In this document: positions 25,402 to 53,962 of the stretch, in pieces
Numbering within the stretch: the first letter of the stretch is position 1
Layout: each line of letters begins with the position of its first letter
Assembly: GCF_900168265.1 (NCBI RefSeq)
Contig: NZ_FVZF01000025.1
Location: 1 to 61,035, forward strand
Length of the DNA stretch: 61,035 nucleotides
Direction of reading: 5' to 3'
DNA from: Salegentibacter salarius
Lineage (GTDB): Bacteria > Bacteroidota > Bacteroidia > Flavobacteriales > Flavobacteriaceae
Made by a program: the position numbers and the translations under genes
Notes under the pieces: generated by a model
Seen by the model: the letters and a program-made list of their open reading frames with translations, nothing else
What the model was told of the DNA's origin: nothing
Database searches by the model: none

Positions 25402-26667
25402 ATGGCTGCTGAAACCGCAACTAATCAGAACAACACCAGTAGATCTATTGTTATTATAGGCGTGTTATTTTTCATCTTCGGCTTTGTAACCTGGTTAAAT
25501 TCTGTACTTATACCATTTTTAAAAACTGCCAGCCAGTTAAATAACTTTGAATCTTATTTAGTAGCCTTTGCTTCTTATATTTCATATTTCGTAATGGCTA
25601 TCCCTTCAGCCTGGGTATTAAAAAGAACCGGTTTTAAAAACGGAATGTCACTAGGCCTGGTTGTAATGGCGATAGGTGCTTTAATTTTTATACCGGCTGC
25701 GATGTCCAGAACTTACGCGATGTTCCTATTCGGGTTGTTTGTTCAGGGAACCGGTTTGGCTTTGCTACAATCGGCAGCTAATCCCTATATCACTATTCTT
25801 GGGCCTATTGAAAGTGCCGCCAAACGAATTAGTATTATGGGTATTTGCAATAAGGTCGCTGGTGCATTAGCTCCTATTATCTTTGGTTCCATACTTCTGA
25901 AGAATATGGATTCTGAAGAAGCGAAATTGGCAGGATTAAATGTTATAGAAAAAGCAGCAGCCCTGGATGAACTTTCTAACCGGGTGATCACACCATATAT
26001 AATTATGGCGGTAATTTTGGTAGGTCTTTCAGTGCTTATTTATTATTCAGCTTTACCTGAAATTGAAACCGATGGAGAAGATGAGACCCTTGCTGCTGCG
26101 AATAAAAGTAAAACCAGCGTGCTTCAGTTCCCAAATTTACTATTAGGAACCCTGGCTATGTTTTTATACGTTGGAGTAGAGGTAATTGCCGGAGATACGG
26201 TGATAAGTTATGCTCGCGATGGACAGAATATTGATACAGATATCGCTAAATATTTCACTACGTATACCTTAATTGCCATGATTGTGGGGTATTTAATTGG
26301 TACGGTAACTATTCCAAAATATATAAGTCAGCAAAAAGCATTACAGATCTCAGGTATTTTGGGAATTATACTTGGGCTTTGTGCAATCTTTACCGATGGC
26401 TATATTTCAGTGCTTTGTATATCGCTCTTAGGTTTAGCAAATGCTTTGGTATTCCCTGCAATTTGGCCTTTAGCACTTAATGGATTGGGTAGATTTACTA
26501 AAATAGGTTCTTCCTTCCTAATTATGGCACTGGCCGGTGGAGCTATTTTACCACTAATCTACGGATATTTAGCCGATACTTTTGATCCTCAATCGGCCTA
26601 CTGGATAGTAATTCCAAGTTATTTGTATATCTGGTTTTTCGCAGCAAAAGGACACAAAATAAAATAA
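25402..26667 (+). CDS. MFS sugar permease, probably for N-acetylglucosamine (NagP-like)
   Basis: A 421-residue inner-membrane transporter with 12 predicted helices, of the fucose/glucose-galactose branch of the major facilitator superfamily. Seen: GVLFFIFGFVTWLNSVLIPF in helix 1, the mid-protein GVEVIAGDTVISYA block and a hydrophilic central loop (about 215 to 235). In Bacteroidota and marine Gammaproteobacteria, relatives beside hexosaminidase and nag genes are NagP, the GlcNAc permease. The next gene, a GH20 hexosaminidase, begins 10 bases downstream, so a GlcNAc or MurNAc substrate is likely by context. Exact specificity is inference. Confidence 0.8.
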   Translation: MAAETATNQNNTSRSIVIIGVLFFIFGFVTWLNSVLIPFLKTASQLNNFESYLVAFASYISYFVMAIPSAWVLKRTGFKNGMSLGLVVMAIGALIFIPAAMSRTYAMFLFGLFVQGTGLALLQSAANPYITILGPIESAAKRISIMGICNKVAGALAPIIFGSILLKNMDSEEAKLAGLNVIEKAAALDELSNRVITPYIIMAVILVGLSVLIYYSALPEIETDGEDETLAAANKSKTSVLQFPNLLLGTLAMFLYVGVEVIAGDTVISYARDGQNIDTDIAKYFTTYTLIAMIVGYLIGTVTIPKYISQQKALQISGILGIILGLCAIFTDGYISVLCISLLGLANALVFPAIWPLALNGLGRFTKIGSSFLIMALAGGAILPLIYGYLADTFDPQSAYWIVIPSYLYIWFFAAKGHKIK

Positions 26668-26677
26668 AGATTTTAGA

Positions 26678-28249
26678 ATGAAAAGTTTAAGTTTCAAGTT
26701 AGGTTTAGTTTTAGTGTTTTTTCAACTGGGTTTATCCGCACAAGAACCCGAAGTTGAAAAACCAGCAATCATACCGCAGCCAGCAGAAATTGAGTGGAAA
26801 GACGAGTTCTTTACACTACAGGAAAGAACAGTGGTTTGTTTTAATTCCGGTGCAGAAGCATCGGCTGCCTGGCTGCAGCGATTGCTGAGTAATACTTATA
26901 CACAAAGCTATGAGATGCGGGGAGAAAATTGTAACGGTTTTAACCTTAATATTGATCCAGAACTAGAAGAAACTCTTGGTAAAGAAGGTTACAATTTAGA
27001 TATTACTTCAAGTACCGTTAGTTTAGAAGCGGCAACTGAAGCCGGACTATTTTATGCTATCCAAACCTTGCGGCAAATGTTTCCACCGGAAATTGAAAAT
27101 GAAAAAATTTCGGAAGAAATAAAACTTTCCCAGGTATCTATCACCGACAGTCCACGATTTGAATGGCGCGGGTCTATGCTGGATATTGCTCGTAGTTTTT
27201 TCGGTCCAAATTATATTAAAAAGCATTTAGACCGAATGGCTTTTTACAAATTAAACAGACTTCATTTGCACCTAACCGATGATCAGGGGTGGCGTATAGA
27301 AATAAAACAAAAACCTAAATTAACCGAATTAGGTAGTAAAGGTGCCGTTAAAGGCGGTAGGTCTGGGTATTTAACCCAGGAAGAATATAAAGAAATCCAG
27401 GAATATGCTGCGGCGAGAAATATTGTAATTGTTCCTGAAATTGATATGCCAGGACATATTTATTCAGCCTTAATGGCTTATCCAGAATTAAATTGTGACG
27501 ATTTTAGCAATATAGAACCCAGGATGGCGACTCCACCGGAGTTATTTCACGAATACAAAGTAGGATGGAGTAAACTATGTTTAGATAAGCCTGAAATTTA
27601 TGATTTTGTAGCTACAGTTTTAGGGGAAATGGCAGAGATCACTACCGGAGATTATTTACATATTGGAGGTGATGAGATTGAAGACGAACGTTACAAAGAA
27701 TTTGTGGTGAAAGCCGATTCTATTGTTCAAAATCTTGGCAAAACAACTGTAGGTTGGGAAGAAGTAACTCAGGCAGTAGTAGACACTACTTTTATTAGTC
27801 AGCGTTGGAATGGGAAAACCAAAAGTGTAGTGAATACGCCTATAATAGAATCTATTTGTTCGAGTTTTTATTATGATCACGCCAACGTACCGGGACAGGA
27901 AATGACCAATAATTGGTGCAAGGAAGATGGAGTTTCTTTAAAAGATGCTTATACCTTTAAGGTGAAAAGTCCGAATACCATAGGGGTAGAGGCTCCGGTT
28001 TGGACCGAGATGGTACTTTCTAACGAAGCTGCAGACGATAGGTTCTGGCCAAGAACAATAGCCATGGCAGAAGTGGGTTGGACTAAGGCAGAGAAAAAAG
28101 ATTATAAGAACTTTATAAAACGTCTGGGAGAACAAGGTTTAAGACTTGATCTTATGGATGTAAATTATTTTAGAAGCCCAGAAGTAGATTGGAATAGCAA
28201 CCCTAAAAAAGGGATTTTTTCAGAATTTATGCCTAAATCTAAATTTTAA
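26678..28249 (+). CDS. GH20 beta-N-acetylhexosaminidase
   Basis: A 523-residue exported glycosidase that removes terminal beta-linked GlcNAc or GalNAc by substrate-assisted catalysis. A Sec signal peptide ends near residue 21. A GH20b-type N-domain covers about 30 to 155, followed by the catalytic barrel (about 160 to 500). The acid/base pair Asp332-Glu333 lies in HIGGDEIED. Other conserved blocks are HLHLTDDQGWRIEIK and DMPGHIYSALMAYPEL. It lies between the permease and murQ, implying it frees sugars from wall or chitin fragments in the periplasm. Chitin as the substrate remains possible. Confidence 0.93.
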   Translation: MKSLSFKLGLVLVFFQLGLSAQEPEVEKPAIIPQPAEIEWKDEFFTLQERTVVCFNSGAEASAAWLQRLLSNTYTQSYEMRGENCNGFNLNIDPELEETLGKEGYNLDITSSTVSLEAATEAGLFYAIQTLRQMFPPEIENEKISEEIKLSQVSITDSPRFEWRGSMLDIARSFFGPNYIKKHLDRMAFYKLNRLHLHLTDDQGWRIEIKQKPKLTELGSKGAVKGGRSGYLTQEEYKEIQEYAAARNIVIVPEIDMPGHIYSALMAYPELNCDDFSNIEPRMATPPELFHEYKVGWSKLCLDKPEIYDFVATVLGEMAEITTGDYLHIGGDEIEDERYKEFVVKADSIVQNLGKTTVGWEEVTQAVVDTTFISQRWNGKTKSVVNTPIIESICSSFYYDHANVPGQEMTNNWCKEDGVSLKDAYTFKVKSPNTIGVEAPVWTEMVLSNEAADDRFWPRTIAMAEVGWTKAEKKDYKNFIKRLGEQGLRLDLMDVNYFRSPEVDWNSNPKKGIFSEFMPKSKF

Positions 28250-28282
28250 ATTATTTTAGATATTTTATTGAAAACATTTCTC

Positions 28283-28296: not shown

Positions 28297-28323
28297 GGAG
28301 ATATATTATAATTAAACTTAAAA

Positions 28324-29139
28324 ATGGAGAATAATAATCCCGATACCGAAAAAACTTCGAAGTATAATGATTTAGAGAAAATGAGTACTTCAACTCTGCT
28401 TCATAATATAAACAAGGAAGATAAAACCGTTCCAGAAAGTGTTGAAAAAGAGCTTCCGGCCATTGAAAAATTGGTTGATGCCATAGCACCTAAAATGGAA
28501 GCTGGTGGCCGATTATTTTATATTGGCGCTGGAACAAGTGGAAGACTGGGGGTTTTAGATGCTTCTGAGTGTCCTCCTACTTTTGGGGTATCAGATGAAT
28601 TAGTTATAGGCTTAATTGCCGGTGGTGATATTGCATTAAGAAATGCGGTAGAAAATGCCGAAGATGACACCAACCAGGCCTGGAAAGATCTTCAAAAATT
28701 TGAAGTTTCAGAAAAAGACGTGGTGGTAGGGATTGCTGCATCAGGAACTACTCCATACGTTATTGGCGGAATTAAAGATGCACGATCTAAAGGAATAGTG
28801 ACGGGTTGCGTAACTTGTAGTTCTGGCAGTCCTTTGGCCGCAGCAAGCGAATTCCCTATAGAGGTGGTTACCGGACCCGAGTTTGTAACTGGTAGTACAA
28901 GAATGAAAGCCGGAACTGCGCAAAAACTGGTATTGAATATGATCTCAACCAGTGTAATGATAAAACTAGGCAGGGTAAAAGGCAATAAAATGGTAGATAT
29001 GCAACTTTCCAATAAGAAATTGGTAGGCCGCGGTACCAGGATGATTATGGAAGAGTTAAATGTAGATGAAGCTGAAGCCGCACGATTGCTTGAAACATAT
29101 AAAAGTGTAAGAAATGTACTGGCAAAATATGAAAGTTAA
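28324..29139 (+). CDS. murQ: N-acetylmuramic acid 6-phosphate etherase
   Basis: Cleaves the D-lactyl ether of MurNAc 6-phosphate to give GlcNAc 6-phosphate and D-lactate, the key step of peptidoglycan sugar recovery in the cytoplasm. 271 residues, slightly shorter than the enterobacterial enzyme at the C-terminus. The SIS-domain active site is intact: FYIGAGTSGRLGVLDASECP (about 61 to 80), then VGIAASGTTPYV and TGSTRMKAGTAQKLVLNMIS. The first 20 residues are hydrophilic. It is the last gene of the permease-GH20-murQ set and convergent with the DeoR-type gene. No MurNAc kinase is adjacent. Confidence 0.94.
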   Translation: MENNNPDTEKTSKYNDLEKMSTSTLLHNINKEDKTVPESVEKELPAIEKLVDAIAPKMEAGGRLFYIGAGTSGRLGVLDASECPPTFGVSDELVIGLIAGGDIALRNAVENAEDDTNQAWKDLQKFEVSEKDVVVGIAASGTTPYVIGGIKDARSKGIVTGCVTCSSGSPLAAASEFPIEVVTGPEFVTGSTRMKAGTAQKLVLNMISTSVMIKLGRVKGNKMVDMQLSNKKLVGRGTRMIMEELNVDEAEAARLLETYKSVRNVLAKYES

Positions 29140-29217: not shown

Positions 29218-29973
29218 CTATAATAAATTCAGGCCTATATTTCTATATTTTTGTAGCTCTGGTGAGTTAGGTTCTAACTCTGTAATTAGTGTATCTACAG
29301 CAATCGCGTCACAAACTTTAAAACGGTTATAGGTGTTGAGCTTTTTAGAAATGGTAAGTGAAACCAATTTTTTGGAAGATTTAACCATGGCTTTTTTCAT
29401 TTGCGCAACCTCCCAATCCAGTTCGGTAACACCTTTTGCAATATCCATATAACCGGTACCTAAAAAGCAGATATCGGCTGTGATTTCCGATAAAAGATTA
29501 ATAGCACTTCCACCTGCCGCAAGTTGCGATCCTCTTGATAATTTTCCTCCTATAAGATGTACCTCATCATTTTTAGAGGCGTTGTTAAGCAGTTCTACAG
29601 CCATAGGGAGACTTGGAGTAAAGAAAGTTAAATTCATTTTTCTGGGAAGTAATTTTGCAAGTTCTAAATTAGTAGACCCACCACTAATAAGTACCACGTC
29701 ACCATGGTTTAGAAGTTCTACTCCCTTCTTAGCAATAATAGATTTGTTTTCATATTCGTACACCTCCCGGGTATTATCGGAATGAATATTAAATCCATTT
29801 GAAACCGCTCCGCCGTGAACTTTTTTAAGGCGTTTTAATTTATCCAATTCCATGAGATCCCTTCGCACAGTATCCATAGATACGTTAAGAGTTCTGGTTA
29901 AGTCGCTTAGTAACACTCTGTTATGTAGATGTACTTCGTCAAGAATAATTTGATGGCGCTCAGTTTTTTTCAT
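29218..29973 (-). CDS. DeoR/GlpR-family transcriptional regulator
   Basis: A 251-residue DNA-binding regulator. The N-terminal winged helix (about 1 to 57) has the DeoR signature (LSDLTRTLNVSMDTVRRDLM, then ELDKLKRLKKVHGGAV). The C-terminal sensor domain (about 75 to 240) has the sugar-phosphate-isomerase-like fold of the family (DVVLISGGSTNLELAKLLPR, CFLGTGYMDIAKGVTELDWE). Members usually repress sugar operons and respond to a phosphosugar; MurNAc 6-phosphate or GlcN 6-phosphate is a reasonable guess. It is divergent from susC (270-base gap) and convergent with murQ, so either could be a target. Confidence 0.88.
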   Translation of the reverse strand: MKKTERHQIILDEVHLHNRVLLSDLTRTLNVSMDTVRRDLMELDKLKRLKKVHGGAVSNGFNIHSDNTREVYEYENKSIIAKKGVELLNHGDVVLISGGSTNLELAKLLPRKMNLTFFTPSLPMAVELLNNASKNDEVHLIGGKLSRGSQLAAGGSAINLLSEITADICFLGTGYMDIAKGVTELDWEVAQMKKAMVKSSKKLVSLTISKKLNTYNRFKVCDAIAVDTLITELEPNSPELQKYRNIGLNLL

Positions 29974-30080: not shown

Positions 30081-30163
30081 TACTGTTTTTTTATTAAAAT
30101 TCTATTTATGCAATTAAAAATAGCAAAAAATAGACTAGTAGCGCAAAAAAACAGCAAAATAAG
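30081..30163. promoter_or_regulatory. Candidate operator: A-tract repeats upstream of susC
   Basis: CTGTTTTTTT (30083-30092) and AAAAAAACAG (30145-30154) are exact inverted copies. Between and beyond them are related A-tracts spaced about 15 to 20 bases apart (AGCAAAAAATAG, AGCGCAAAAAAACAG, AGCAAAATAAG). The cluster sits in the susC-deoR gap, upstream of the susC -33 element, and could be bound by the DeoR-type regulator. In DNA this AT-rich, such runs can also occur by chance. Confidence 0.35.
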
Positions 30164-30242: not shown

Positions 30243-33200
30243 ATGGGAAAACGTTTTCGTAAATCTATTTTAGTGTTGCTCTGCCTATTTTCAATTCAGG
30301 TGTGGGCACAGGAGAGAGAAGTTTCGGGAGAAATCTTTGATACGGATGGAATGCCTCTACCAGGGGTGAACGTATTTATAGAGAATACATCCAAAGGAAC
30401 TGTAAGTAATTTTGATGGGGAATTTTCTCTAAGTATTCCAGATGAAAACAGTACAGTGCTGGTTTTTTCATCTTTAGGATTCCAGGAACAGAAGATTACT
30501 GTGGGGAATCAAAACAATTTCACTATTACTATGCAAACCGATACTGAAGGTTTGGATGAAGTAGTGGTAGTTGGGTATGGTAGTCAAAAACGGAGTAATG
30601 TAACCAGTTCAATCTCTACGATAGATACAGAAGTTTTGGATTCAAGACCAATTACCGATGTTGCACGTGGTTTGCAAGGTGCAAGTCCCGGGATAACGAT
30701 TACATCTCCTACCGGGCAGATTGGTCAGGACCCAACTATAAGATTGCGTGGTAATGTAGGAACTTTAAGCCCGGGAGGTGGCGGTGCTCAACCCTTAATT
30801 TTGGTAGACAACGTTGAGGTTTCCAGCCTGCAATCTATAAACCCGCAGGATATTGAAGATATTTCAGTATTAAAAGATGCAGCATCTACTTCTATTTATG
30901 GAGCCAGAGCTGCCTGGGGTGTGATTTTGGTGACTACTAAAAATGGTAGACGAAGCCAGGCACCAACCGTTAACTACTCGAATAACATTTCATGGTCTAC
31001 TCCAACCAATACTCCTACAGTTGCACCAGCAGCAGACGGAGCCGAGATGGCTTTTGCGGCTGTGAGAAGAAGAATTCCTTCTTTAGATGCATTTGGATTG
31101 GTGAATATGTACTTAGATGATACCGCGATTGAAAGAATGCGAGAATGGGAAGAACTATATGGAGATCAGAATTTAAGTGATGAAATGGTTCTTGGCCGTG
31201 ATTTTGAAATAAGAGATGGAAGATTGTTTTTCTATCGTCCGTGGAATCCTGAAGATAAGTTCGTAAAAGAATGGGCGCCACAGCAAAAACACGATCTTTC
31301 TGTTTCAGGAGGAAGTGAAAAAACTAACTACTATGTTGGTCTTGGTTACCTGGAACAAGGTGGAGTTTATAAAGCAAACCCAGATGAATTTGAAAGATAT
31401 AACCTTAACTTAAGTGTTAATACTTCTATTACAGACTGGATGGATGTTCGAGCCAAAGTATTATATACCAATACAAAAACAACAGAACCTTTTGCTTTTG
31501 GATCTGCTACTTATGATGCTTGGTATTATACCACCAGATGGCCGGCATATTATCCTTACGGAACTTACGAAGGAAATCCTTTTAGAAGTCACGTAAACGA
31601 AGTGGCCCAGGCAAAGATGAACCAAAATGATAGGGCTCTAACCAGAATTAATTTAGGTACCACTATCAATCCTATTGAAAATCTAGATATTAATTTTGAT
31701 TATACTTTTGACGGTGTAGATAGACACGAACACCAGGTTGGTGGATCGGTTTCGGCTTACAATTTCTGGGCTACCGGGCCAGATCTAGTTTACGAGCCAT
31801 ATACCAGCCCAGCGTATGATAGGGTGGTTTACAATTCTTCCTGGAGTAGAAGAAACACCGCAAAAGCTTTTGCGACTTACGATCTTAATATAGCTGATGA
31901 TCATCAATTTGAAGTTACTGTTGGTGGTGATGCCGAAGAGTTTGAATTATGGGCACAATCTTCTCAAAGAAGAGATTTATTAAACCCAGATCAGGGAGAG
32001 TTAGACCTGGCTACAGGAGATCAGTTCGTTGGAGGTGATAGAGAAAATTGGACCACTTTAGGTGCTTTTGCTCGAATTAACTATTCATATAAAGAAAAGT
32101 ATCTACTTAACGTAAATGGTAGATATGATGGTTCTTCCAGACTTTCAGCAGATGAGAAGTGGGCATTTTTCCCATCTATGTCGGCTGGTTGGATTGTTAC
32201 CAAAGAAGATTTTATGGATGCTGTAAAGCCAACTTTGTCTTTCCTAAAGTTAAGAGGGTCTTATGGATCTGTAGGAAACCAAAATGCGCTAATCTCTAAC
32301 ATTTATAGAACAATGTCGTCCTACAATACCGGATGGTTAATAGATGGTGAAAACCAGTTAACTACAGGAACTCCTGGAGCTTTACCGGCAGATCTTACCT
32401 GGGAAACTGTTACCACCTTAGATTTAGGTTTCGATGCTCGTTTCTTTAAAGATAAATTAGGAGCTAGTTTTAGCTGGTACGAGAGAACAATTAGCGATAT
32501 GCATAGTGCAGGGGTAACTTTGCCTAATTCTTTTGGTACTTCAGCTCCAATTAGAAATTTTGGTGAGATTCAAACCAAAGGTTGGGAGCTTGAACTTGAT
32601 TTTAGCCATACTTTTGATAACGGACTTAGCATAAACACTAAAGGTAACTTAAGTGACTTTAAAGAGAGAGTAACGAAATTTGCAAATACTACCGAGGGAA
32701 TTAATTCTTATTATGAAGGGAAACAATTGGGAGAAATTTGGGGATATGAAACCGATAGATTTTTTACTGAAGCCGATTTTGATTCCGACGGTAACTTAGC
32801 GGAAGGCATTCCTTCTCAGGAAATCTTCGAAACAAATGGATGGTTTCAGTACGGTCCCGGAGATATAAAATACAAAGACTTAAATGGTGATGGTGTTGTA
32901 GATTTTGGATCTAGAACAGTAGGTGATTCCGGAGATATGAAAAGAATTGGTAACTCCACACCTCGTTACCAATATGGATTGCAAATAGGAGCAAACTGGA
33001 AAGGTTTTGATTTTAACATGTTTATGCAGGGTGTTGGAAAACGTGATTTCTGGGCAAACGGGCCGGTATTTATTCCTGGCTATCGTTATGGAGAAGCCTG
33101 GTATGAGCACCAGTTAGACTACTGGACTCCAGAAAATCCAAACGCATATTATCCAAGACCTAACGACCAGCAACAATCTAATAATGCGATGAACTTTTTA

Positions 33201-33473
33201 CCGCAATCAAAATATTTATTAGACATGTCTTATTTGAGAATGAAGAACATCACCTTAGGATATACTATTCCAACTTCTCTAACAGAAAAATTTCAGGTAG
33301 AAAGGTTTAGAATTTATGCCAGTGGTGAGAATCTTTTCGAATTCACAGGTGCACAGGTTCCTGTAGATCCTGAAGTAGACTATACCTCAGCCGGTTTAAA
33401 TGACACCTCAACCTTTGGACGTGTTTACCCATTTAGAAGATCATTTTCTTTAGGAGTTCAGGTAACACTATAA
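30243..33473 (+). CDS. SusC/RagA-type TonB-linked outer-membrane transporter
   Basis: A 1076-residue outer-membrane protein that forms the barrel of a SusCD pair importing oligomers with TonB energy. After the signal peptide (ending VWAQ, about 23), a carboxypeptidase-regulatory-like domain spans about 27 to 100 (DTDGMPLPGVNVFIENTSKG). The TonB/plug segment (DEVVVVGYGSQKRSNVTSSI) begins near 105, and the 22-strand barrel ends in RSFSLGVQVTL with the usual terminal aromatic/hydrophobic pattern. SusD follows after 19 bases. Its place beside murQ, GH20 and wall hydrolases suggests it takes up peptidoglycan glycan or muropeptides, but this is inference. Confidence 0.95.
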   Translation: MGKRFRKSILVLLCLFSIQVWAQEREVSGEIFDTDGMPLPGVNVFIENTSKGTVSNFDGEFSLSIPDENSTVLVFSSLGFQEQKITVGNQNNFTITMQTDTEGLDEVVVVGYGSQKRSNVTSSISTIDTEVLDSRPITDVARGLQGASPGITITSPTGQIGQDPTIRLRGNVGTLSPGGGGAQPLILVDNVEVSSLQSINPQDIEDISVLKDAASTSIYGARAAWGVILVTTKNGRRSQAPTVNYSNNISWSTPTNTPTVAPAADGAEMAFAAVRRRIPSLDAFGLVNMYLDDTAIERMREWEELYGDQNLSDEMVLGRDFEIRDGRLFFYRPWNPEDKFVKEWAPQQKHDLSVSGGSEKTNYYVGLGYLEQGGVYKANPDEFERYNLNLSVNTSITDWMDVRAKVLYTNTKTTEPFAFGSATYDAWYYTTRWPAYYPYGTYEGNPFRSHVNEVAQAKMNQNDRALTRINLGTTINPIENLDINFDYTFDGVDRHEHQVGGSVSAYNFWATGPDLVYEPYTSPAYDRVVYNSSWSRRNTAKAFATYDLNIADDHQFEVTVGGDAEEFELWAQSSQRRDLLNPDQGELDLATGDQFVGGDRENWTTLGAFARINYSYKEKYLLNVNGRYDGSSRLSADEKWAFFPSMSAGWIVTKEDFMDAVKPTLSFLKLRGSYGSVGNQNALISNIYRTMSSYNTGWLIDGENQLTTGTPGALPADLTWETVTTLDLGFDARFFKDKLGASFSWYERTISDMHSAGVTLPNSFGTSAPIRNFGEIQTKGWELELDFSHTFDNGLSINTKGNLSDFKERVTKFANTTEGINSYYEGKQLGEIWGYETDRFFTEADFDSDGNLAEGIPSQEIFETNGWFQYGPGDIKYKDLNGDGVVDFGSRTVGDSGDMKRIGNSTPRYQYGLQIGANWKGFDFNMFMQGVGKRDFWANGPVFIPGYRYGEAWYEHQLDYWTPENPNAYYPRPNDQQQSNNAMNFLPQSKYLLDMSYLRMKNITLGYTIPTSLTEKFQVERFRIYASGENLFEFTGAQVPVDPEVDYTSAGLNDTSTFGRVYPFRRSFSLGVQVTL

Positions 33474-33492
33474 TTTTAAAAATCTAGTTATT

Positions 33493-39561: not shown

Positions 39562-39626
39562 GCTGTTGAAAAAAGTAAAAATCATTCTTGAATTTGTGGC
39601 GAAAACAAGAAACTAAAATTGAAATA

Positions 39627-45440: not shown

Positions 45441-46379
45441 TTACAAATACTTCTTATGCAATTGGTAAAGCACTTTTAGATTGTGCTTACCAAAAGGCTG
45501 TTCTAAATCTTCCTGGATAAAATGAAGTTTAAAGGCGCTCTTTGCAGCTTCAAGATCTGAAGTGTCATAACCTATAATTTTAAGGGCATTTTCAATATTG
45601 AAATCGGCCGGAATTACTTCAGGAAAAACCAATTTATCTATAAAAGGAATTCGGGTATTTAGCCGGCTGTTGAGGTGAATCGCCAAAGGATTCGGATTAA
45701 AAAATTCGGCTTCCAGTTTTAAATTTTCTACTTCTGCCTCATCATACCATAGCCCAAAACCTTCTTCGGCCAGCCGTTTCCAGGGGAAGTTTGCATTGGG
45801 ATCTACTTTTCTTGATGGTGCAATATCAGAATGGCCTATAAAATTTTCGGCGGGAATATTGTATTTTTCTTTAATTTCGCTTAGCAATTCTACCAGGCTA
45901 ATAATCTGTAATTCGGTAAATTCTTCTTTACCATTATTATCAATTTCGATCCCCAGAGAAGAAGAATTTAAATCGGTATTGTTGCCCCATTTGCCAATAC
46001 CACCGTGCCAGGCCCTAAGGTAATCGTTAAGCATATGATAGATTTCGCCATTTTTGGCGATCACGTAATGTGAGCTTACTTGTGTTCTAGGCAGGGTAAA
46101 AGTATTTAAAGTTTGCCCTACAGAATCTTGCGCAGTGTGATGTATAACCACATAATTTGGCTTGCGCATATTAAAATTAGTAGTTCCTACCCAGTATTCA
46201 CCATAATTGAGTGCGGATTCGTTTTGGTTTTCCCGGGTAGGGAACTGCTGTAACTGTTTACTATAATTTTTTACCTGCTTTTTATAGACCCTATTGGTTT
46301 TAGCGTAAGGGTTAGAACTACAGGAAGTAATTATACTTCCTATTAACAGCATTATATAAAGCGGGTAAAGACTTCTCAT
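45441..46379 (-). CDS. N-acetylmuramoyl-L-alanine amidase lipoprotein, AmiD/AmpD type
   Basis: A 312-residue lipoprotein (IGSIITSCSSN, acylated Cys20) with an Amidase_2 domain at about 70 to 230. Zinc ligands are in VIHHTAQ, IGHSDIAP and the aspartate of SRKVDPNANFPW, the His-His-Asp set of AmpD and AmiD. SSLGIEIDNNG is also conserved. The C-terminus (about 230 to 312) is a helical peptidoglycan-binding-like region as in AmiD. AmiD of E. coli is an outer-membrane lipoprotein that trims muropeptides. It starts two bases after the nagB-like stop, so co-transcription is nearly certain. Confidence 0.92.
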   Translation of the reverse strand: MRSLYPLYIMLLIGSIITSCSSNPYAKTNRVYKKQVKNYSKQLQQFPTRENQNESALNYGEYWVGTTNFNMRKPNYVVIHHTAQDSVGQTLNTFTLPRTQVSSHYVIAKNGEIYHMLNDYLRAWHGGIGKWGNNTDLNSSSLGIEIDNNGKEEFTELQIISLVELLSEIKEKYNIPAENFIGHSDIAPSRKVDPNANFPWKRLAEEGFGLWYDEAEVENLKLEAEFFNPNPLAIHLNSRLNTRIPFIDKLVFPEVIPADFNIENALKIIGYDTSDLEAAKSAFKLHFIQEDLEQPFGKHNLKVLYQLHKKYL

Positions 46380-46381: not shown

Positions 46382-48304
46382 TTAATCAAATTTCCATTTT
46401 ACGAAAGCTTCCATAGCTTCATAGTTTGCTAGTCCCAAAGAGTGGTAGCTCTCTGCGGTTTCGCGATTTCTTTCTTCTGCACGTACCCAAAATTCCCTTT
46501 CATCATCACCGGGAAATACAGGTCTGTCTTTTTGTGATTGATGCTGATAAATAGCATGTCTTTTACGCTGAACCTCCATAGGGGAAAGCGGTACGGCCAT
46601 TTCTATTTCATGAACATCAAATTCCTGCCATGCGCCGCGGTACATCCATAACCAGCAGTCTTTAGTCCAGGATTCGGTTTTTCTAAGTCTTTTCATAGCT
46701 TCCAGGATTATTCGGAAACATACGATATGGGTACCGTGAGGATCGGCAAAATCACCTGCAGCAAAAACCTGGTGTGGTTTTACTTCTTTTAAAAGCTCCA
46801 TTGTAAGTTCCACATCCTTCTCGGTAACCGGGCTTTTTACACGCTTTCCGGTTTCGTAGAATGGCAAAGCCATAAAATGGATGTTCTTATCTTTTAATCC
46901 GGCGTAACGAGCTCCTGCGATCGCTTCAGATTTTCTAATAAAAGCTTTTACGTCCCTTATTTCATCTAAGTCTATATCGTTTGGTTCTTTTTTCTCAATA
47001 AAAGCCCGCATTTTCTCATAAGTAGCTTCTAGGCTTTCGGTGTCTTCTCCTGTACTTTTCTTAAAATCTATGGCAAATTCTACATACCGAAGAACATCTG
47101 TATCCCAAACGGCCGTGTTTCCCGAAGTTTGGTAAGCCACATGAACATCGTGTCCCTGGTCTACAAGCCTAATAAAAGTTCCTCCCATAGAGATTACATC
47201 ATCATCTGGGTGTGGAGAGAAAATAATAGAACGTTTTTTTGCAGGGCTTTTTCGCTCCGGGCGTTGAGAATCGTCGGCATTTGGTTTTCCTCCTGGCCAA
47301 CCAGTTATACTGTGCTGTAACTGGTTAAAGACATCTATATTAATATCGTAGGCAGGACCTTGCTCGGTGGCAAGTTGCGCCATTCCGTTATTGTTATAAT
47401 CTTCATCGGTAAGCTTAAGGATAGATTTTCCTACTTCTGAAGAAAGCCAGATTACCGCTTTTTTAATCAGTGCTTTATCCCAGGTGCAATCTTTTACTAA
47501 CCATGGTGTATCAAACCTTGTTAATTCTGAAGCAGCATCTTCATCCAAAATAAATTCAACATTATCTGAAAGTTGAAGATAAGTTGCAGGGACATTACCA
47601 GACATTTCTCCTTCCACAGCTTTTTTAATGATAGGAGCTTTTTTCTTACTCCAGGCCATCAAAATAATTTCGCGTGCTTTAAAAATGGTACCAATTCCCA
47701 TAGTTATGGCTTTGGTAGGCACATTTTCTTTACCACCAAAGTCTCTAGATGCATCACGGCGGGTTAGATCGTCTAAAGTAACCAGTCGCGTACCAGAATT
47801 TGGAGCAGATCCCGGCTCGTTAAAACCAATATGACCGGTTCTACCAATTCCAAGTAACTGTAGATCTAATCCACCAACGGCGCCAATTTTATTTTCGTAA
47901 GCAAGGCAATAATCAGTAATTTCTTCCTTGGCAAGCGTACCGTCTGGAATATGAATATTATCTCTTTTTATATCTATATGATTAAAAAGATTTTCATCCA
48001 TAAACTTCACATAACTCTGCTTGGCATCCGGTAGCATTGGATAATACTCATCCAGGTTAAAAGTGATCACGTTTTTAAAACTCAATCCTTCTTCCTTATG
48101 CATTCTAATTAGTTCTTCATATACTTCTACAGGAGTTGCTCCCGTAGCAAGCCCAAGCACGGCATTTTCATGATTTTCCTGCTTGCGGCGAATTAGATCT
48201 GCAATTCGTTTAGCTACCTTTTTGGAAGCAATATGTTCATCTTCATAAACTTTTACCGGTAGTTTTTCAAAACGTGTTTCTTCTAAAAGATTTAATCTTG
48301 CCAT
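46382..48304 (-). CDS. nagB: Glucosamine-6-phosphate deaminase fused to a PIG-L domain
   Basis: A 640-residue cytoplasmic fusion. Residues 1 to about 275 are NagB, which turns GlcN 6-phosphate into fructose 6-phosphate and ammonia: LGLATGATPVEVY, TFNLDEYYP (general base region) and GIGRTGHIGFNEPGS. Residues about 355 to 640 are a PIG-L/LmbE deacetylase domain with an intact metal motif, HPDDD (His365, Asp367, Asp368), and a downstream DPHGTH. The fusion is known in Bacteroidota. The second domain might remove the acetyl group of GlcNAc 6-phosphate, replacing a missing NagA, but this is inference. The gene follows the ROK regulator by 29 bases. Confidence 0.92.
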   Translation of the reverse strand: MARLNLLEETRFEKLPVKVYEDEHIASKKVAKRIADLIRRKQENHENAVLGLATGATPVEVYEELIRMHKEEGLSFKNVITFNLDEYYPMLPDAKQSYVKFMDENLFNHIDIKRDNIHIPDGTLAKEEITDYCLAYENKIGAVGGLDLQLLGIGRTGHIGFNEPGSAPNSGTRLVTLDDLTRRDASRDFGGKENVPTKAITMGIGTIFKAREIILMAWSKKKAPIIKKAVEGEMSGNVPATYLQLSDNVEFILDEDAASELTRFDTPWLVKDCTWDKALIKKAVIWLSSEVGKSILKLTDEDYNNNGMAQLATEQGPAYDINIDVFNQLQHSITGWPGGKPNADDSQRPERKSPAKKRSIIFSPHPDDDVISMGGTFIRLVDQGHDVHVAYQTSGNTAVWDTDVLRYVEFAIDFKKSTGEDTESLEATYEKMRAFIEKKEPNDIDLDEIRDVKAFIRKSEAIAGARYAGLKDKNIHFMALPFYETGKRVKSPVTEKDVELTMELLKEVKPHQVFAAGDFADPHGTHIVCFRIILEAMKRLRKTESWTKDCWLWMYRGAWQEFDVHEIEMAVPLSPMEVQRKRHAIYQHQSQKDRPVFPGDDEREFWVRAEERNRETAESYHSLGLANYEAMEAFVKWKFD

Positions 48305-48333: not shown

Positions 48334-49620
48334 TTAGCTGATATGCGATTTCACCAGGCTCACCTGGTCTTTAAAAATATCGTCCATAACTGCAATAGTG
48401 CCGCCGTATAAGCTGGAATTCGCTCCAAGGGTAGAAAGTTCTATTTGGGTGCGTTCCTTAAGTTGCATCATGCAGTAGGTATTCATAGATTGCTGAATTG
48501 GGGTGGTGATAAACTGTTTTGCTTCGGCTATTTTCCCTTCTAAAATCACCAATTCAGGGTTAAATATTTGGATTAGAATGGCGATGCCTTTTCCGAGTTT
48601 AATTCCTATTTCAGAAAGCACGTTTATCGCAAATTGATCTCCGCGATTTGCGGCATCTATAATAGTTTCTGGCTCCAGTTTTTCTAATTCTTCTTTTTTA
48701 AGACTATTTAAAACCGAAGTTTGCCCGGCTTTTAAACCTTCTTTTGTTTTTCTAACCAGTGCGAGTCCCGAAGCTTCTGTTTCCAGGCAACCGCGTTTTC
48801 CGCAGTGGCAAAGCAATCCGTCTTCGGTCATGGGGATATGCCCAAATTCGCCGGCAAATCCAGATTCTCCCGAGTGCATTCTTCCGCCCATAATAATGCC
48901 CAGGCCAATACCCCAATCCATAGAGATTACCAGGACGTTGTTTTTATTTTTGGCAGTACCAAATCGGAATTCTGCTAAACAGGCACTCTTAGCATCATTT
49001 AAAATGGCCACCGGTTTTTTAAATTTTTTCTCGAACTTTAATTTAAGCGATTCTGGTTCCTGTTCACTTAAATAATAGGTGAAGTTTTTACCCGCTTCGG
49101 CCGAAACCAATCCCGGCATGCTAATGCCTACACCCATAACCTGGTCTAGCTTTATTTTTGCTTCTTTAAGCAATTCCTGGCTCCATTCATATAAAAGATC
49201 TACAATATTAGAATCTGTAGAAATTTCTGATGGCCACGATTTTTCGTGAAGTATGGTGTGATTATTATCAATAATTGCCAACTTAATCCTAAAACGTTCT
49301 ATATGAATGCTCACCACAAAAAATGAGTTTTCAATCAATCCGTAAAGATCTGGTTTCCTGCCTCCTTCAGACTTCCCTCGGCCCTTTTTTATGACTATGC
49401 CTTCTTCAATAAGTTGATTTAAAAGCGCCATGGAAGTGGGTAAGCTTACATTAAAACGTTGGCAAACTTCAGCGTTTGAAGTCTCTCCATTCAGAAATAG
49501 ATGTTTGATGATCTTTAATTTCTGAAGGAATTTTTTTCGCTCTACATTATTAATTTTAGAGAGTTTCTTTTCATCTATAAAAAAATCATGTAGATCTGTA
49601 GGCATAGTGTGAGTTGTCAT
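48334..49620 (-). CDS. ROK-family transcriptional regulator (NagC-like)
   Basis: A 428-residue repressor. An N-terminal winged helix (about 20 to 90; GETSNAEVCQRFNVSLPTSM) precedes a ROK sugar-binding domain. The zinc motif CHCGKRGCLE begins at Cys271. The ATP-binding DxGxT motif expected near residue 110 is replaced by SIHIERFRIKLAIID, so it is a regulator and not a sugar kinase. The ligand is probably GlcNAc or GlcNAc 6-phosphate, as in NagC. It is upstream of the NagB fusion in the same operon and divergent from the NagX-like gene, and probably controls both. Confidence 0.9.
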   Translation of the reverse strand: MTTHTMPTDLHDFFIDEKKLSKINNVERKKFLQKLKIIKHLFLNGETSNAEVCQRFNVSLPTSMALLNQLIEEGIVIKKGRGKSEGGRKPDLYGLIENSFFVVSIHIERFRIKLAIIDNNHTILHEKSWPSEISTDSNIVDLLYEWSQELLKEAKIKLDQVMGVGISMPGLVSAEAGKNFTYYLSEQEPESLKLKFEKKFKKPVAILNDAKSACLAEFRFGTAKNKNNVLVISMDWGIGLGIIMGGRMHSGESGFAGEFGHIPMTEDGLLCHCGKRGCLETEASGLALVRKTKEGLKAGQTSVLNSLKKEELEKLEPETIIDAANRGDQFAINVLSEIGIKLGKGIAILIQIFNPELVILEGKIAEAKQFITTPIQQSMNTYCMMQLKERTQIELSTLGANSSLYGGTIAVMDDIFKDQVSLVKSHIS

Positions 49621-49836: not shown

Positions 49837-50994
49837 ATGACTGAAGCCACCAAATTATTTAAGGGAGCAAAATCGCTAAAAAATGAGCGTTATCTTGCGT
49901 TGGATGTATTACGCGGACTTACCGTAGCCTTAATGATATTGGTAAATACACCGGGAAGCTGGTCGCATATCTATGCACCGTTTAAACATGCTCTCTGGCA
50001 TGGTTTTACCCCAACCGATTGGGTTTTTCCTTCCTTCTTATTTGTAATTGGCAACGCTATGAGCTTTAGTCTACGCAAATATGAAAGCATTTCTGAAAGC
50101 GCATTTTTTAAAAAGGTCTTTAAACGGGCGTCATTTATTTTTCTTATCGGATTGTTTTTGAGCGCGTTTCCTTTCGTATTTAGACAGGAAGGGGAACTGG
50201 TTTTTAAGAATTTAGCGAATATGCGAATTATGGGTGTTTTGCAGCGTATTGCTCTTTGCTATCTTTTTGCCTCGCTAATTCTTCATTATTTAAAACTGAA
50301 AAAATCTATTATTCTTGGAAGCCTAATTTTACTTGGATATTGGGCAATTATGTGGTTTTTTGGCGATCAGCCCAATCCGCTTTCTTTAGAGCATAATGCC
50401 GCGCTGAAGTTTGATCAATTAATATTTAATGATGCCAATCTTTATAAAGGTTATGGTCTTCCGTTTGATCCTGAAGGTTTATTAAGTACACTTCCCGCAA
50501 TTGTAAATGTAATTGCAGGCTATGTTGCTGGCGTTTTTATTCAAGGATCAGGGAATAATATTTCTACGATAACCAAGTTAAGTATTTATGGAGTCCTGCT
50601 ATTGGTTGTAGCGCAAATTTGGGATATTTGGTTTCCTATAAATAAACCTATTTGGAGCAGCTCTTATGTTTTATATAGCACAGGCTGGACGCTTTTGGTG
50701 CTTTCAGCATTAATTTTGATCATAGAAATTTTCAATTTTAAGAAGTGGACGACTTTCTTCGAGGCTTTCGGAAAGAACCCTTTATTTGTTTTTGTAATGT
50801 CTGGCCTGGTAGTAATGCTTATGAACATAATTTATGTTAACGGGCAGGCCTTAAAACCCTGGCTTTATGAAAACTTATATCTTAGCTGGCTAAACAATTA
50901 TAACGCCTCGCTGCTGTTTGCCATTTCTTATATGCTGCTTATGTGGCTGCTTGGTTACTGGTTACACAAAAAACGTATCTATATTAAAGTATAA
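49837..50994 (+). CDS. NagX-like membrane protein (heparan-glucosaminide acetyltransferase family)
   Basis: A 385-residue inner-membrane protein with about ten helices. The N-terminus is diagnostic for the DUF5009/HGSNAT group (RYLALDVLRGLTVALMILVN, then TPGSWSHIYAPF). The conserved histidines of HALWHGFTPTDWVFP probably relate to acetyl transfer. Family members called NagX sit in GlcNAc-use loci; the proposed role is acetylation of glucosamine-type sugars across the membrane, with little proof. The GH3 fusion gene follows by 16 bases, so both are one operon. Confidence 0.85.
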   Translation: MTEATKLFKGAKSLKNERYLALDVLRGLTVALMILVNTPGSWSHIYAPFKHALWHGFTPTDWVFPSFLFVIGNAMSFSLRKYESISESAFFKKVFKRASFIFLIGLFLSAFPFVFRQEGELVFKNLANMRIMGVLQRIALCYLFASLILHYLKLKKSIILGSLILLGYWAIMWFFGDQPNPLSLEHNAALKFDQLIFNDANLYKGYGLPFDPEGLLSTLPAIVNVIAGYVAGVFIQGSGNNISTITKLSIYGVLLLVVAQIWDIWFPINKPIWSSSYVLYSTGWTLLVLSALILIIEIFNFKKWTTFFEAFGKNPLFVFVMSGLVVMLMNIIYVNGQALKPWLYENLYLSWLNNYNASLLFAISYMLLMWLLGYWLHKKRIYIKV

Positions 50995-51010
50995 ATTCAA
51001 TTGCTGAATA

Positions 51011-53962
51011 ATGAGAAATAAAATATCACGCTTATTCATTTTTTCTATGGCCTTTTTTGGCTTAACACTTCAGGCCCAGGAAGAGCTTAAAAAATCACCC
51101 GAATTTCTTCAGTACACCAATAGCAAATGGGTAGACTCTATAATGAAAGAGCTTACACCAAAAGAGCGAATTGCTCAGCTTATTATGGTGGCAGCTTATT
51201 CTAATCGGGATAATGAGCATAAGGAGGAAATTCTGAAACTGATTAACGAACAAAAAATTGGCGGATTAATATTTTTCCAGGGTGATCCTGAAACACAATT
51301 AAAGTTGATGAACGATTACCAGTTAGCTTCTGAAGTTCCTTTATTGGGTGCCATTGACGCCGAATGGGGATTGGGAATGCGATTGGATAATACCATTAGT
51401 TATCCTTATCAAATGGCGCTGGGTGCAATTCGGGACGATAGTTTGGTGTACGATTTAGGGCAGGAAGTGGCCCGCCAAATAAAGCGTACGGGGCTTCATC
51501 TTAATTTCGCACCCGTAGTAGATGTAAATAACAATCCTAACAATCCGGTGATTAATTACCGCTCTTTTGGGGAAAATAAAGGAAATGTTTCCGCAAAAGG
51601 AATCGCCTATATGCGTGGGATGCAGGATGCGAATTTGCTAACCACCGCAAAACATTTTCCCGGCCACGGTGATACCGATACCGATTCTCATTACGCGCTT
51701 CCGCAGATAAATCATCCTTTTGAAAGGTTAGATTCTTTAGAAATGTACCCGTTTAAAGAGCTTATAGACGCCGGAATTGGTGGCGTGATGGTAGCGCATT
51801 TAAATATTCCCGCACTGGATTCAACCGGAGTGCCTTCCACCTTATCAAAATCTATCATCACCGGAATTTTAAAAGATAGTCTTGGTTTTAAAGGTTTAAT
51901 CGTGACCGATGCGATGAATATGAAAGGCGTAACCAAAGGAAACGAACCCGGAATTGTTGATAAAGACGCCATTTTAGCAGGTAACGATCTCTTAGAGTTT
52001 ACAGAAGATGTTCCAAAAGCTATTGAGGAAGTAAGCAAAGCCATTAAGCAGGGATTAATTTCTCAAAAACAGTTAGATGAACGAGTAAGAAAGATCCTGG
52101 CGGTAAAACAGTGGGTTGGTTTAAATCAATTTAAAGCGCAAAGCCCCAAAAATATATTGAAAGAGATCAATACCGCTGATGCGAAATTCTTAAACAGGAA
52201 ACTGGTAGAAGCCTCGCTTACCGTACTAAAAAATGAAAATAGCATTTTACCAATTAGGAAGCTGGATACTTTAAAGATCGCTTCAATTTCTTTTGGAGCT
52301 TCCAAGCAAACCGAATTTCAGAAAACCTTAAACCTATATACCGAAGTAAAAAACTTTCAGTTAAAAGCTGATGCGAAAGCTTCAGACATAGAGAAGATCA
52401 AAGAGAAACTTTCAGCATACAATCTTGTAATTGGTGGGATTCACGACGATAGCCGTTTCCCGAGAAATACGATGAAATTTTCTAAACCCATACAGGATTT
52501 TATCGCGGAACTTGCCGAAAAAGAACATACGATTTTCAGCTATTTTAAAAATCCATATTCTATAAATAAACTGGATAAGATTGAAAATGCAGCCGGTTTA
52601 ATTTTAACCTACCAGGATAGCAAAACTACGCAAGACCTTGCCGCGCAGCTTATTTTTGGCGGCGTAGGAGCAAACGGAAGACTTCCTGTGAGTATTGGTG
52701 AGAAATTCAAGTCGGGAGACGGGATGGATGTAAAAGGAAAAATTAGATTTAAATATACCCTGCCCGAAGACGCCGGGATGAATTCTGAAAAACTTTATGG
52801 CGGTGTGGATTCCTTAATGCACGAAGCTATTAAAAAAAAAGCGACGCCGGGAGGGCAAATTCTAGTCGCTAAAGATGGGAAAATAGTCTTACACAAAGCT
52901 TACGGTTACCATGAATACAGCGATACCATAAAAGTTAAGAAAACCGATTTGTATGATCTGGCTTCAGTAACAAAAATTTCTTCGGCTTTACCGGCTTTAA
53001 TGAAGTTGCACGACGAAGGCAAGTTTAAGCTTGATGCCGGGATAGACGACTACTTACCGTATTTTAAAAACTCGAATAAAGCGGGAGTTCCTTTTCGGCA
53101 AATTCTAACGCACCAGGCAAGGTTTAAGCCCTGGATCCCATACTGGAAAAATACACTGCGCAAAAACGGAAGCTACAAATGGTTTACGTTTAAAAAAGAT
53201 TCTTCCAGGCGCTTTCCTGTAAAAGTAAGTGGAGATCTATGGTTACATCGCAATTATCAAAATAAGATGTTTAAAGCCATCAAGAAATCTGAGCTGGAAG
53301 ACGAGGCAAAATATAAATATTCTGGCCTGGTTTTTTACTTGTTACCTTCTATTGTAGAAGAGATTTCCGGGGAAGATTTCAGAAAATATATCAATGAAAA
53401 TTTTTACGATAAACTGGGTGCTACAACTTTAGGTTATAATCCGCTGGAACGTGTTGAAAAAAGCCGAATTGTACCTACAGAACACGATTATTTATTCCGA
53501 AAAAAACCTATTCACGGGATGGTGCACGATGAAGGAGCGATTATGATGGGTGGAGTATCGGCTAATGCCGGGCTTTTTTCTAATGCCAACGACCTGGCAA
53601 AACTGATGCAAATGTACCTAAATATGGGCGAATATGCCGGAGACCGCTATATTGAAGAAGAAACCTTAAAAGAATGGAGTACCGCGCAGTTTCCCGAGAA
53701 TGACAATCGCAGGGGAATAGGATTTGATAAACCCTCTTTAGAATATGAAGGTGAAAGTAGTAACACGGCAAAAGACGCGAGCAAGGCGAGTTTTGGCCAT
53801 ACAGGTTTTACCGGAATTTACGCCTGGGTAGATCCTAAAGAAGATTTGCTTTACCTGTTTCTTTCTAACCGCGTTTTGCCTTCCAGAGAAAATACAAGGC
53901 TATATCAATTAAATACAAGAACAAATATTCAACAGGTTTTGTATGATTCTATAGAAAAATAA
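51011..53962 (+). CDS. GH3 NagZ-type hexosaminidase fused to a serine hydrolase
   Basis: A 983-residue exported fusion (signal ends near 22, LQAQ). Residues about 40 to 380 are the GH3 barrel with the NagZ signature KHFPGHGDTDTDSH (214-227; Asp225-His227 dyad) and nucleophile Asp300 (IVTDAMNMKG). A GH3 C-terminal domain follows (about 395 to 570). From about 595 a beta-lactamase/penicillin-binding-type domain has SxxK at Ser652-Lys655 (ASVTK), YSG at 770-772 in place of YxN, and HTG for KTG. NagZ cuts GlcNAc from muropeptides; the second half could act on wall peptides or esters. Such fusions are known in Bacteroidota. Confidence 0.92.
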   Translation: MRNKISRLFIFSMAFFGLTLQAQEELKKSPEFLQYTNSKWVDSIMKELTPKERIAQLIMVAAYSNRDNEHKEEILKLINEQKIGGLIFFQGDPETQLKLMNDYQLASEVPLLGAIDAEWGLGMRLDNTISYPYQMALGAIRDDSLVYDLGQEVARQIKRTGLHLNFAPVVDVNNNPNNPVINYRSFGENKGNVSAKGIAYMRGMQDANLLTTAKHFPGHGDTDTDSHYALPQINHPFERLDSLEMYPFKELIDAGIGGVMVAHLNIPALDSTGVPSTLSKSIITGILKDSLGFKGLIVTDAMNMKGVTKGNEPGIVDKDAILAGNDLLEFTEDVPKAIEEVSKAIKQGLISQKQLDERVRKILAVKQWVGLNQFKAQSPKNILKEINTADAKFLNRKLVEASLTVLKNENSILPIRKLDTLKIASISFGASKQTEFQKTLNLYTEVKNFQLKADAKASDIEKIKEKLSAYNLVIGGIHDDSRFPRNTMKFSKPIQDFIAELAEKEHTIFSYFKNPYSINKLDKIENAAGLILTYQDSKTTQDLAAQLIFGGVGANGRLPVSIGEKFKSGDGMDVKGKIRFKYTLPEDAGMNSEKLYGGVDSLMHEAIKKKATPGGQILVAKDGKIVLHKAYGYHEYSDTIKVKKTDLYDLASVTKISSALPALMKLHDEGKFKLDAGIDDYLPYFKNSNKAGVPFRQILTHQARFKPWIPYWKNTLRKNGSYKWFTFKKDSSRRFPVKVSGDLWLHRNYQNKMFKAIKKSELEDEAKYKYSGLVFYLLPSIVEEISGEDFRKYINENFYDKLGATTLGYNPLERVEKSRIVPTEHDYLFRKKPIHGMVHDEGAIMMGGVSANAGLFSNANDLAKLMQMYLNMGEYAGDRYIEEETLKEWSTAQFPENDNRRGIGFDKPSLEYEGESSNTAKDASKASFGHTGFTGIYAWVDPKEDLLYLFLSNRVLPSRENTRLYQLNTRTNIQQVLYDSIEK

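Follow-up and report, generated by a model that had tools for sequence, protein, structure and literature searches.

Between positions 25402 and 53962 of the window, a 61,035-nucleotide stretch of Salegentibacter salarius DNA (contig NZ_FVZF01000025.1), lies a cluster of 17 genes that is probably a peptidoglycan utilisation locus. The genome, called G000 in our comparisons, comprises 3.33 Mb in 48 contigs, of which the window is C19. We found that the enzyme core of the locus is kept together in the congeneric loci compared, and that its MurQ, the etherase acting on N-acetylmuramic acid (MurNAc) 6-phosphate, groups with MurQ proteins encoded beside SusC and SusD (SusCD) in other Flavobacteriaceae. 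A reading made earlier from the sequence alone had assigned this gene set to peptidoglycan. The set does fit peptidoglycan better than chitin, and the MurQ tree and the NamZ and AnmK genes of sister loci support that view.

Gene content of the locus

Searches of the window proteins against Pfam and NCBIfam profiles, and against solved structures in the Protein Data Bank (PDB) by sequence, bore out the families that the sequence-only reading had named along the locus, with motifs intact. That reading had linked about 15 genes. The linked set held; the count did not, since there are 17 and the outer-membrane protein gene at 54090-56495 had been omitted. Likewise, its component list was sound as far as it went but left undiscussed the beta-lactamase-like partner of the GH3 domain and a large NAGPA-phosphoesterase (40991-44785). 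The motifs given below were read from the sequence, and we take them to have their accepted functional meaning.

The tandem susC-susD pair that is the hallmark of a canonical Bacteroidetes polysaccharide utilisation locus (PUL) is present at 30243-35208. It consists of a SusC of the kind that we call type A on the SusC tree (30243-33473, plus strand; TIGR04056, 859 bits) and a type A SusD lipoprotein with a lipobox (33493-35208, plus; PF07980, 4e-34), and its cassette includes a DeoR-type regulator (29218-29973, minus; PF08220/PF00455). A PUL definition quoted in PMC10811738 specifies at least two carbohydrate-active enzyme genes within a 10-gene window; here GH20 and GHL10 are no more than 10 genes away from SusCD, with GH3 farther off, leaving aside the CAZy-family standing of GHL10.

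The wall-type genes begin with MurQ (28324-29139, plus; TIGR00274, 318 bits against a cut-off of 302). The GHL10 glycosidase (35300-36901, plus; PF02638, 1e-60) is of the DigH/Cwp19 kind and lipoprotein-like by eye; its sole PDB match is Cwp19 (1e-70), which we take to be a peptidoglycan-lytic enzyme. It is followed by an SSF sodium symporter with a proposed MurT-like role (37000-38457, plus; PF00474) and an L-Ala-D/L-Glu-type dipeptide epimerase of the MR_MLE kind (38470-39486, plus; KxK/DAN/DMD), which matches PDB entry 3iji, deposited as a muconate cycloisomerase (4e-60), and the dipeptide epimerase 3jva (8e-38). The SH3-NlpC/P60 peptidase (39588-40853, plus; DCSG/HVG/HS) is closest to 3pvq (3e-85) and 3npf, both named dipeptidyl-peptidase VI; its TTG start at 39588 is a mechanical call, and an ATG 13 codons in gives a signal that is lipoprotein-like by eye. 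Of the two amidases, both with an HHT motif, Ami1 is an Amidase_2 protein (44805-45392, minus; PF01510) and Ami2 an AmpD/AmiD-type lipoprotein with a lipobox (45441-46379, minus; PF01510, 4e-31) that matches AmpDh2 (6e-28) and AmiD in the PDB. The last gene of the locus encodes a fusion of a NagZ-type GH3 domain with an AmiE/PBP4B-like beta-lactamase-family domain (51011-53962, plus; PF00933, 3e-80; PF00144, 2e-44; PBP4B, 149 bits, below cut-off), in which KHFPGHGDTDTDSH and SVTK/HTG are intact; the GH3 domain matches PDB entry 6k5j and the B. subtilis-type YbbD structure (8e-70). The closest PDB relatives of the locus enzymes thus include wall enzymes, which favours the peptidoglycan reading.

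Five further genes are of amino-sugar type: an MFS sugar symporter of the GluP/NagP type and candidate permease for N-acetylglucosamine (GlcNAc) (25402-26667, plus; TIGR01272, 299 bits against a cut-off of 203; NagP, 403 bits, below its cut-off of 625), a GH20 beta-hexosaminidase (26678-28249, plus; PF00728, 1e-76; HIGGDE), a fusion of a NagB deaminase with PIG-L (46382-48304, minus; NF002557, 1069 bits against a cut-off of 384; HPDD in PIG-L), a ROK/NagC-type regulator (48334-49620, minus; PF00480 and HTH_24) and a NagX/HGSNAT-like membrane acetyltransferase (49837-50994, plus; NF046061, 165 bits, below its cut-off of 480; PF07786, 8e-9).

A conserved core with an exchangeable SusCD cassette

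To assess conservation, we mapped the window proteins on 13 other Salegentibacter genomes (epimerase 84-99% identical), giving 14 loci with the window; G008, 61% complete and with a weak epimerase match only, was left out of this count. MurQ, GH20, GHL10, SSF and the epimerase occur together in all 14 loci, and NlpC is kept in all 13 that are readable, the G013 contig breaking off too early. Of the 13 readable loci, 11 have the right half (Ami2, NagB-PIG-L, ROK, NagX and GH3-beta-lactamase), inverted in G011; in G006 and G007 the fetched stretch does not contain it. The synteny check thus refuted non-conservation for the enzyme core, though not for SusCD. In G006 we also noted a second NamZ match (C29:104094-104699) about 100 kb from the locus. 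Its open frame, at 592 residues, is as long as an amidase-NamZ fusion, and the missing right half may lie near it.

The slot between murQ and GHL10 varies among these loci. It holds type A SusCD alone in three of the 14 (G000, G004, G014) and a distant type B pair alone in four (G005, G012, G011, G003); in one (G006) the two types stand in tandem, each accompanied by a separate DeoR. In the other six (G010, G009, G002, G013, G007, G001) it contains neither SusCD nor DeoR. Type B SusC is only 25-27% identical to type A, and in G005 and G003, where it was checked, type B SusD belongs to the SusD-like_2 kind. An orthologous DeoR accompanies the type B pair in G005, G012 and G011, whereas the G003 pair has none. 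Because DeoR is 92-94% identical to that of the window in G005 and G012 while SusC is 27% identical, the regulator seems to have been retained while the transporter was exchanged. From this synteny, we conclude that SusCD is an exchangeable cassette on a kept core; SusCD as an obligatory part of the locus was set aside, as the slot varies. The label "SusCD-linked", accurate for the window, therefore needs weakening: it does not describe a fixed feature.

Three further observations were made in these genomes. G009 has a second MurQ match (L031; C17 near 359586) that is 94% identical to the window MurQ, against 84% for the copy in its own locus, and the stretch fetched there ends in a GH20 fragment. 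In G003 a GH9 gene (L035:17469-19280) lies between SSF and the epimerase, and open reading frames (ORFs) of similar length occupy that gap in G001 and G006. Beside the epimerase half-locus of G006, an ileS-like class I tRNA synthetase gene (L041:2829-6704) has a DUF559 domain matched between the synthetase parts.

MurQ neighbourhoods and the MurQ tree

Of 299 Flavobacteriaceae genomes, 282 have MurQ and 283 have NamZ, so that the presence of either alone is uninformative. Two MurQ matches occur in nine genomes; the window genome has one. We therefore scored what surrounds MurQ in 60 neighbourhoods of about 10 kb on each side, some broken by contig ends. The sample is not random: 20 (L160-L179) are the matches that rank next in identity to the window MurQ below those already collected, and the other 40 were picked by hand from among the matches listed. 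Neighbourhoods chosen by their epimerase were excluded from the statistics, L177, with a SusC fragment at the stretch end, was scored negative, and some panel proteins (GH3, GH18) came from G209, whose locus L163 is in the sample.

SusC was present in 15 of the 60 neighbourhoods: 12 of the 20 next-highest identities and 3 of the other 40. Comparing these 15 with the 45 that lack SusC, we found NamZ in 9/15 versus 1/45, GH3 in 11/15 versus 1/45, DeoR in 10/15 versus 1/45, SSF in 11/15 versus 8/45, NagX in 6/15 versus 0/45, and NagB-PIG-L and GH18 each in 3/15 versus 0/45. A SusD panel match occurred in 10/15 versus 0/45; Pfam added SusD in L166, L167 and L169, and found none in L175. Together with the core in 14 of 14 congeneric loci, the association of SusC with NamZ and with GH3 around MurQ elsewhere indicates that the clustering of the locus genes exceeds chance.

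The MurQ tree (69 rows: the 60 of the sample, the window and eight from loci in hand) is divided by a branch with 100/98 support. All 22 SusCD-linked rows, the window among them, fall on one side with seven unlinked rows, while the 40 rows on the other side are all unlinked; five of the 22 are Salegentibacter, and the bootstrap had not fully settled. The linkage label changes six times on this tree, against about 19 times when shuffled, and G209 has both kinds of MurQ (L163 and L173).

Other genes recur at these loci. Among the loci that a Pfam scan for it covered, at least 7 of the 15 SusC-positive ones (L162, L164-L168, and L163 via the overlapping L158) encode an FAD-oxidase/4Fe-4S protein of 971-975 residues. 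It is presumably of the D-lactate-dehydrogenase type and may oxidise the D-lactate that MurQ releases. In two SusCD loci, L166 and L167, MurQ has AnmK as a neighbour. In G169 a DUF6259 protein of 762 residues (L162:5585-7873) is encoded between SSF and MurQ, with similar-length ORFs likewise placed in G061 and G161.

Relatives in other genera and sister loci

The Ami1 slot of the window is occupied in G003 by a 587-residue Amidase_2-NamZ_N-NamZ_C fusion (Pfam), and in G001 by an ORF of the same length that, by coordinates, spans an Ami1 match and a NamZ match. Going by its Pfam name, NamZ is an exo-beta-N-acetylmuramidase family. Christiangramia bathymodioli (L071) has the complete locus as well: SusC is 70% and SusD 78% identical, the NAGPA slot holds a phosphoesterase-propeller protein, and creatininase-family and ROK-family genes are added. 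Aureibaculum marinum has an orthologous SusCD between the epimerase and NamZ, with two further SusC-SusD pairs nearby, and in two genomes of another genus the orthologous SusCD is followed directly by GHL10. G170, on the next branch of the SusC tree (quick method), reads DeoR-SusC-SusD-GHL10-NamZ-MurQ-SSF-GH3. Among the nine rows of the type A SusC clade plus G170, one contig is too short to judge; the other nine, four of them Salegentibacter, all have GHL10, NamZ, MurQ or the epimerase within 10 kb.

Type B SusCD also has relatives at such loci: G136, of another genus, carries it (82% and 78% identical) in an MFS-GH20-MurQ-DeoR-SusCD-GHL10-epimerase-NlpC locus. The SusC proteins of NamZ-MurQ loci match type B best, but at only 27-31% identity. 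The window SSF is 50-54% identical to SSF proteins beside MurQ in 15 other loci, of which 10 have a NamZ match and 14 show no epimerase match. A search of 858 plasmid records with the epimerase gave a best identity of 47%. In Flagellimonas, Flavobacterium, Polaribacter and others (L092, L132, L145 and similar), the epimerase is followed by an ORF of 340-348 residues and faces a SusC pair; this arrangement is possibly a peptide-side wall import module.

Proposed function and alternatives

We propose that the secreted or lipoprotein enzymes of the locus (GHL10, NlpC/P60, the amidases, GH20 and the GH3-AmiE-like fusion) would convert wall into glycan pieces and stem peptides. GHL10 would act on the glycan, the amidases would free stem peptides and NlpC/P60 would release L-Ala-D-Glu, while GH20 and the GH3-beta-lactamase fusion would trim the sugars. 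For such trimming by GH3 and beta-lactamase-type enzymes, NagZ-AmiE of Bacillus subtilis is the model. SusCD, type A in the window and under DeoR control, would import the pieces across the outer membrane; across the inner membrane the MurT-like SSF would carry MurNAc and the NagP-like MFS GlcNAc. Kinases encoded elsewhere, followed by MurQ and NagB-PIG-L, would pass the sugars into glycolysis, and the epimerase would make L-Ala-D-Glu usable. MurNAc appears a likelier SSF cargo than a dipeptide because related symporters beside MurQ mostly lack an epimerase neighbour and because MurT of Tannerella forsythia belongs to the sodium symporter superfamily (PMC5790795).

The rest of the genome bears on these steps. 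No NagA passes the cut-off in G000, and among 13 Salegentibacter genomes only that of G001 does (G003 and G010 have strong matches below it). We therefore set aside NagA-dependent deacetylation, and the PIG-L half of the NagB fusion may be the missing GlcNAc-6-phosphate deacetylase. AnmK is present in the genome, whereas no MurNAc kinase was found by Pfam among the locus proteins; a kinase candidate is a BadF-family match (PF01869), below cut-off, on contig C5.

Several results weigh against the peptidoglycan reading. Besides the kinase, NamZ is missing from the window locus, the single copy of the genome lying on contig C16. Six of the 14 congeneric slots lack SusCD, and among 13 Salegentibacter genomes searched (G000-G012) type A SusD (at least 84% identical) occurs only in G000, G004 and G006, the best match elsewhere being 43%. 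At MurQ loci neither GHL10 (1/15 versus 0/45) nor the epimerase (2/15 versus 0/45) shows a significant association with SusC. SusD relatives that fall outside the type A clade lie beside GH92 and sulfatases in G265, and near the distant relatives in G005:C15 and G285 no wall gene was matched among the window proteins. Finally, GH20, MFS, ROK, NagX and NagB are equally expected in a chitin or GlcNAc cluster.

Indeed, these five GlcNAc-type genes are the case for a chitin or GlcNAc locus with incidental wall genes, an explanation that we regard as very improbable. No GH18 or GH19 match was found among the locus proteins (the genome has one GH18; GH19 was sought in the locus), and chitin use offers no evident role for MurQ, the two amidases, NlpC/P60, the epimerase or GHL10; the chitin locus was set aside on these grounds. 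A composite, in which the core handles peptidoglycan and what the SusCD cassettes take up is some other amino-sugar glycan or peptide feeding the same pathway, has better standing, as distant SusCD pairs (SusC 25-27% identical) share one slot, with an orthologous DeoR in G005, G012 and G011 and none in G003, and type B SusD is of the SusD-like_2 kind. We still think it improbable: wall-type genes remain beside the type A clade in other genera, G136 has type B orthologues (SusC 82%) in a locus of the same kind, and the SusC proteins of NamZ-MurQ loci are nearest to type B, if only at 27-31% identity.

Somewhat less improbable, though in our judgement still unlikely, is that the locus serves own-wall recycling, the core salvaging the cell's own turnover products and SusCD or the outer-membrane protein recapturing fragments lost to the medium. 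MurQ and NamZ are ordinary in the family, the genome has a single MurQ and no AmpG over the cut-off, and 6 of 14 congeneric loci retain the core although they lack SusCD. Set against this, the window MurQ lies on the SusCD-linked side of the tree, apart from the 40 stand-alone rows, G209 keeps both kinds of MurQ and nine genomes have two matches, and the SusCD module differs from species to species, in the manner of nutrient loci. GH20, SusD and NAGPA-phosphoesterase are not known as recycling genes. Because the only MurQ of the genome is here, the core probably serves own-wall recycling as well, and the best account is use of exogenous wall fragments, perhaps merged with such recycling.

A narrower version of peptidoglycan use, feeding on Gram-positive walls, is one that we hold only tentatively and consider doubtful. 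The NAGPA-phosphoesterase would strip wall teichoic acid at the GlcNAc-1-phosphate-6-MurNAc linkage, NagX would restore the acetyl group to de-N-acetylated glucosamine, and cleaned muropeptides or denuded glycan would enter through an exchangeable SusCD, A or B, governed by a single DeoR operator, the whole being one variant of family-wide SusCD-MurQ loci with their own MurQ lineage. The protein (40991-44785, minus; PF09992, 2e-38; PF00149, 4e-20; NAGPA-named PDB entries, 6pku at 7e-10) joins a NAGPA phosphodiester glycosidase, golvesin_C and a calcineurin-like phosphoesterase. This architecture fits a class described in PMC11188070, of cell-surface calcineurin-like phosphoesterases of which some are fused to NAGPA or PQQ propellers, and of which one, ShfP, is predicted there to act on (lipo)teichoic acid, DNA or lipid head groups. 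However, the gene is present in only 4 of 14 congeneric loci (G000, G004, G014, G005), and its activity is uncertain because the first metal motif is DLN, not the usual DxH, in all four aligned orthologues (DTH in the Christiangramia phosphoesterase). An alignment-free structure prediction of its C-terminal 565 residues was of no use (mean pLDDT, the predicted local distance difference test, 42.6).

A candidate operator and a flanking outer-membrane protein

The palindrome GCNATTNNNAATNGC (30108-30126, no strand) recurs in the DeoR-SusC gaps of both type A and type B cassettes in Salegentibacter and is a candidate for a common DeoR operator. It has 15 exact matches in 220 loci, six of them in these gaps and nine elsewhere. 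The gaps are homologous on the DeoR side, which tempers this recurrence, and no exact match was found in the gaps of G011 (L042) or of the outside-genus cassettes L150, L152, L154, L155 and L160. In the window alone, a longer palindrome pattern gave three matches against 1.05 expected, which is not significant.

The locus is flanked by lepA (23192-24988) and dusB (56679-57671). Between the locus and dusB, a TonB-type outer-membrane protein of the OMP_b-brl_3 kind (54090-56495, plus; PF14905, 7e-86) lies beside GH3-beta-lactamase in 10 of the 14 congeneric loci. By this synteny it may be a second importer, as a weak candidate, but it also adjoins the conserved dusB flank.

Relation to known systems

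The sequence-only reading had put the locus forward as a candidate for an undescribed system. The kind is not entirely new to print: a murein-type PUL with two SusCD pairs was drawn in 2023 for a Urechidicola symbiont of Idas mussels (PMC10199937, Fig. 5B), from annotation and expression in one animal, with no functional test and with the substrate called unknown in the text available. That PUL, also from Flavobacteriaceae, shares with the window SusCD, deoR, a sodium co-transporter, murQ, nagB, an MFS permease, an L-Ala-D/L-Glu epimerase, an ampD-type amidase, GH3 and a "GH10" that may, at a guess, be GHL10. It alone has a second susCD pair, GH171 (NamZ), GH18, dacA, bioF and nhaC; the window locus alone has GH20, NlpC/P60, NAGPA-phosphoesterase, GH3-beta-lactamase, NagX and ROK, with one SusCD. 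The murein-type set (SusCD, murQ, nagB, epimerase, AmpD-type amidase, sodium symporter and DeoR) is complete in the window. Among the matches listed in a whole-word search of the open-licence literature, only PMC10199937 joins more than two of murQ, SusD, etherase and SusC, and we found no laboratory test of any such SusCD-wall locus in that literature. The evidence thus supports well that the window locus is a variant of a kind already glimpsed in print and not a first.

In B. subtilis, nagZ-amiE-namZ-murQ are rescue genes and, as in the window, a GH3 NagZ has a beta-lactamase-family partner. The ampG-ybbC-murT-murK-murQ operon of T. forsythia (PMC5388701, PMC5790795) likewise pairs MurQ with a MurNAc importer of the sodium symporter superfamily, a function that is predicted for the window, and its scavenging of foreign wall sugar resembles our reading. 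T. forsythia, however, is a MurNAc auxotroph, SusC and TonB go unmentioned in the available text of PMC5388701, and MurK, AmpG and NamZ were not found in the window locus. RmNag3 of Rhodothermus is a characterised GH3-beta-lactamase fusion active on acetyl-chitooligosaccharides, with no SusCD link in the portion available (PMC6987092), whereas the window fusion stands in a SusCD locus. The chitin PUL of Flavobacterium johnsoniae (PMC5127042) is also a SusCD-linked amino-sugar locus in a flavobacterium; unlike it, the window locus has wall-peptide enzymes, and no chitinase-family gene was found in it. Peptidoglycan families are under-represented in PULs, yet occur in several predicted ones (PMC6499787). 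A review (PMC6448482) relates that B. cereus peptidoglycan stimulates growth of F. johnsoniae, with enzyme and mechanism described there as unknown, an effect that by analogy may count in favour of peptidoglycan use.

Peptidoglycan is a common, nitrogen-rich polymer, yet the glycans for which SusCD systems are mainly known come from plants, algae, fungi and hosts. The locus family described here recurs and has a MurQ lineage that can be told apart; it would supply named genes for testing, and in metagenome studies that lineage could allow wall feeding to be separated from recycling.

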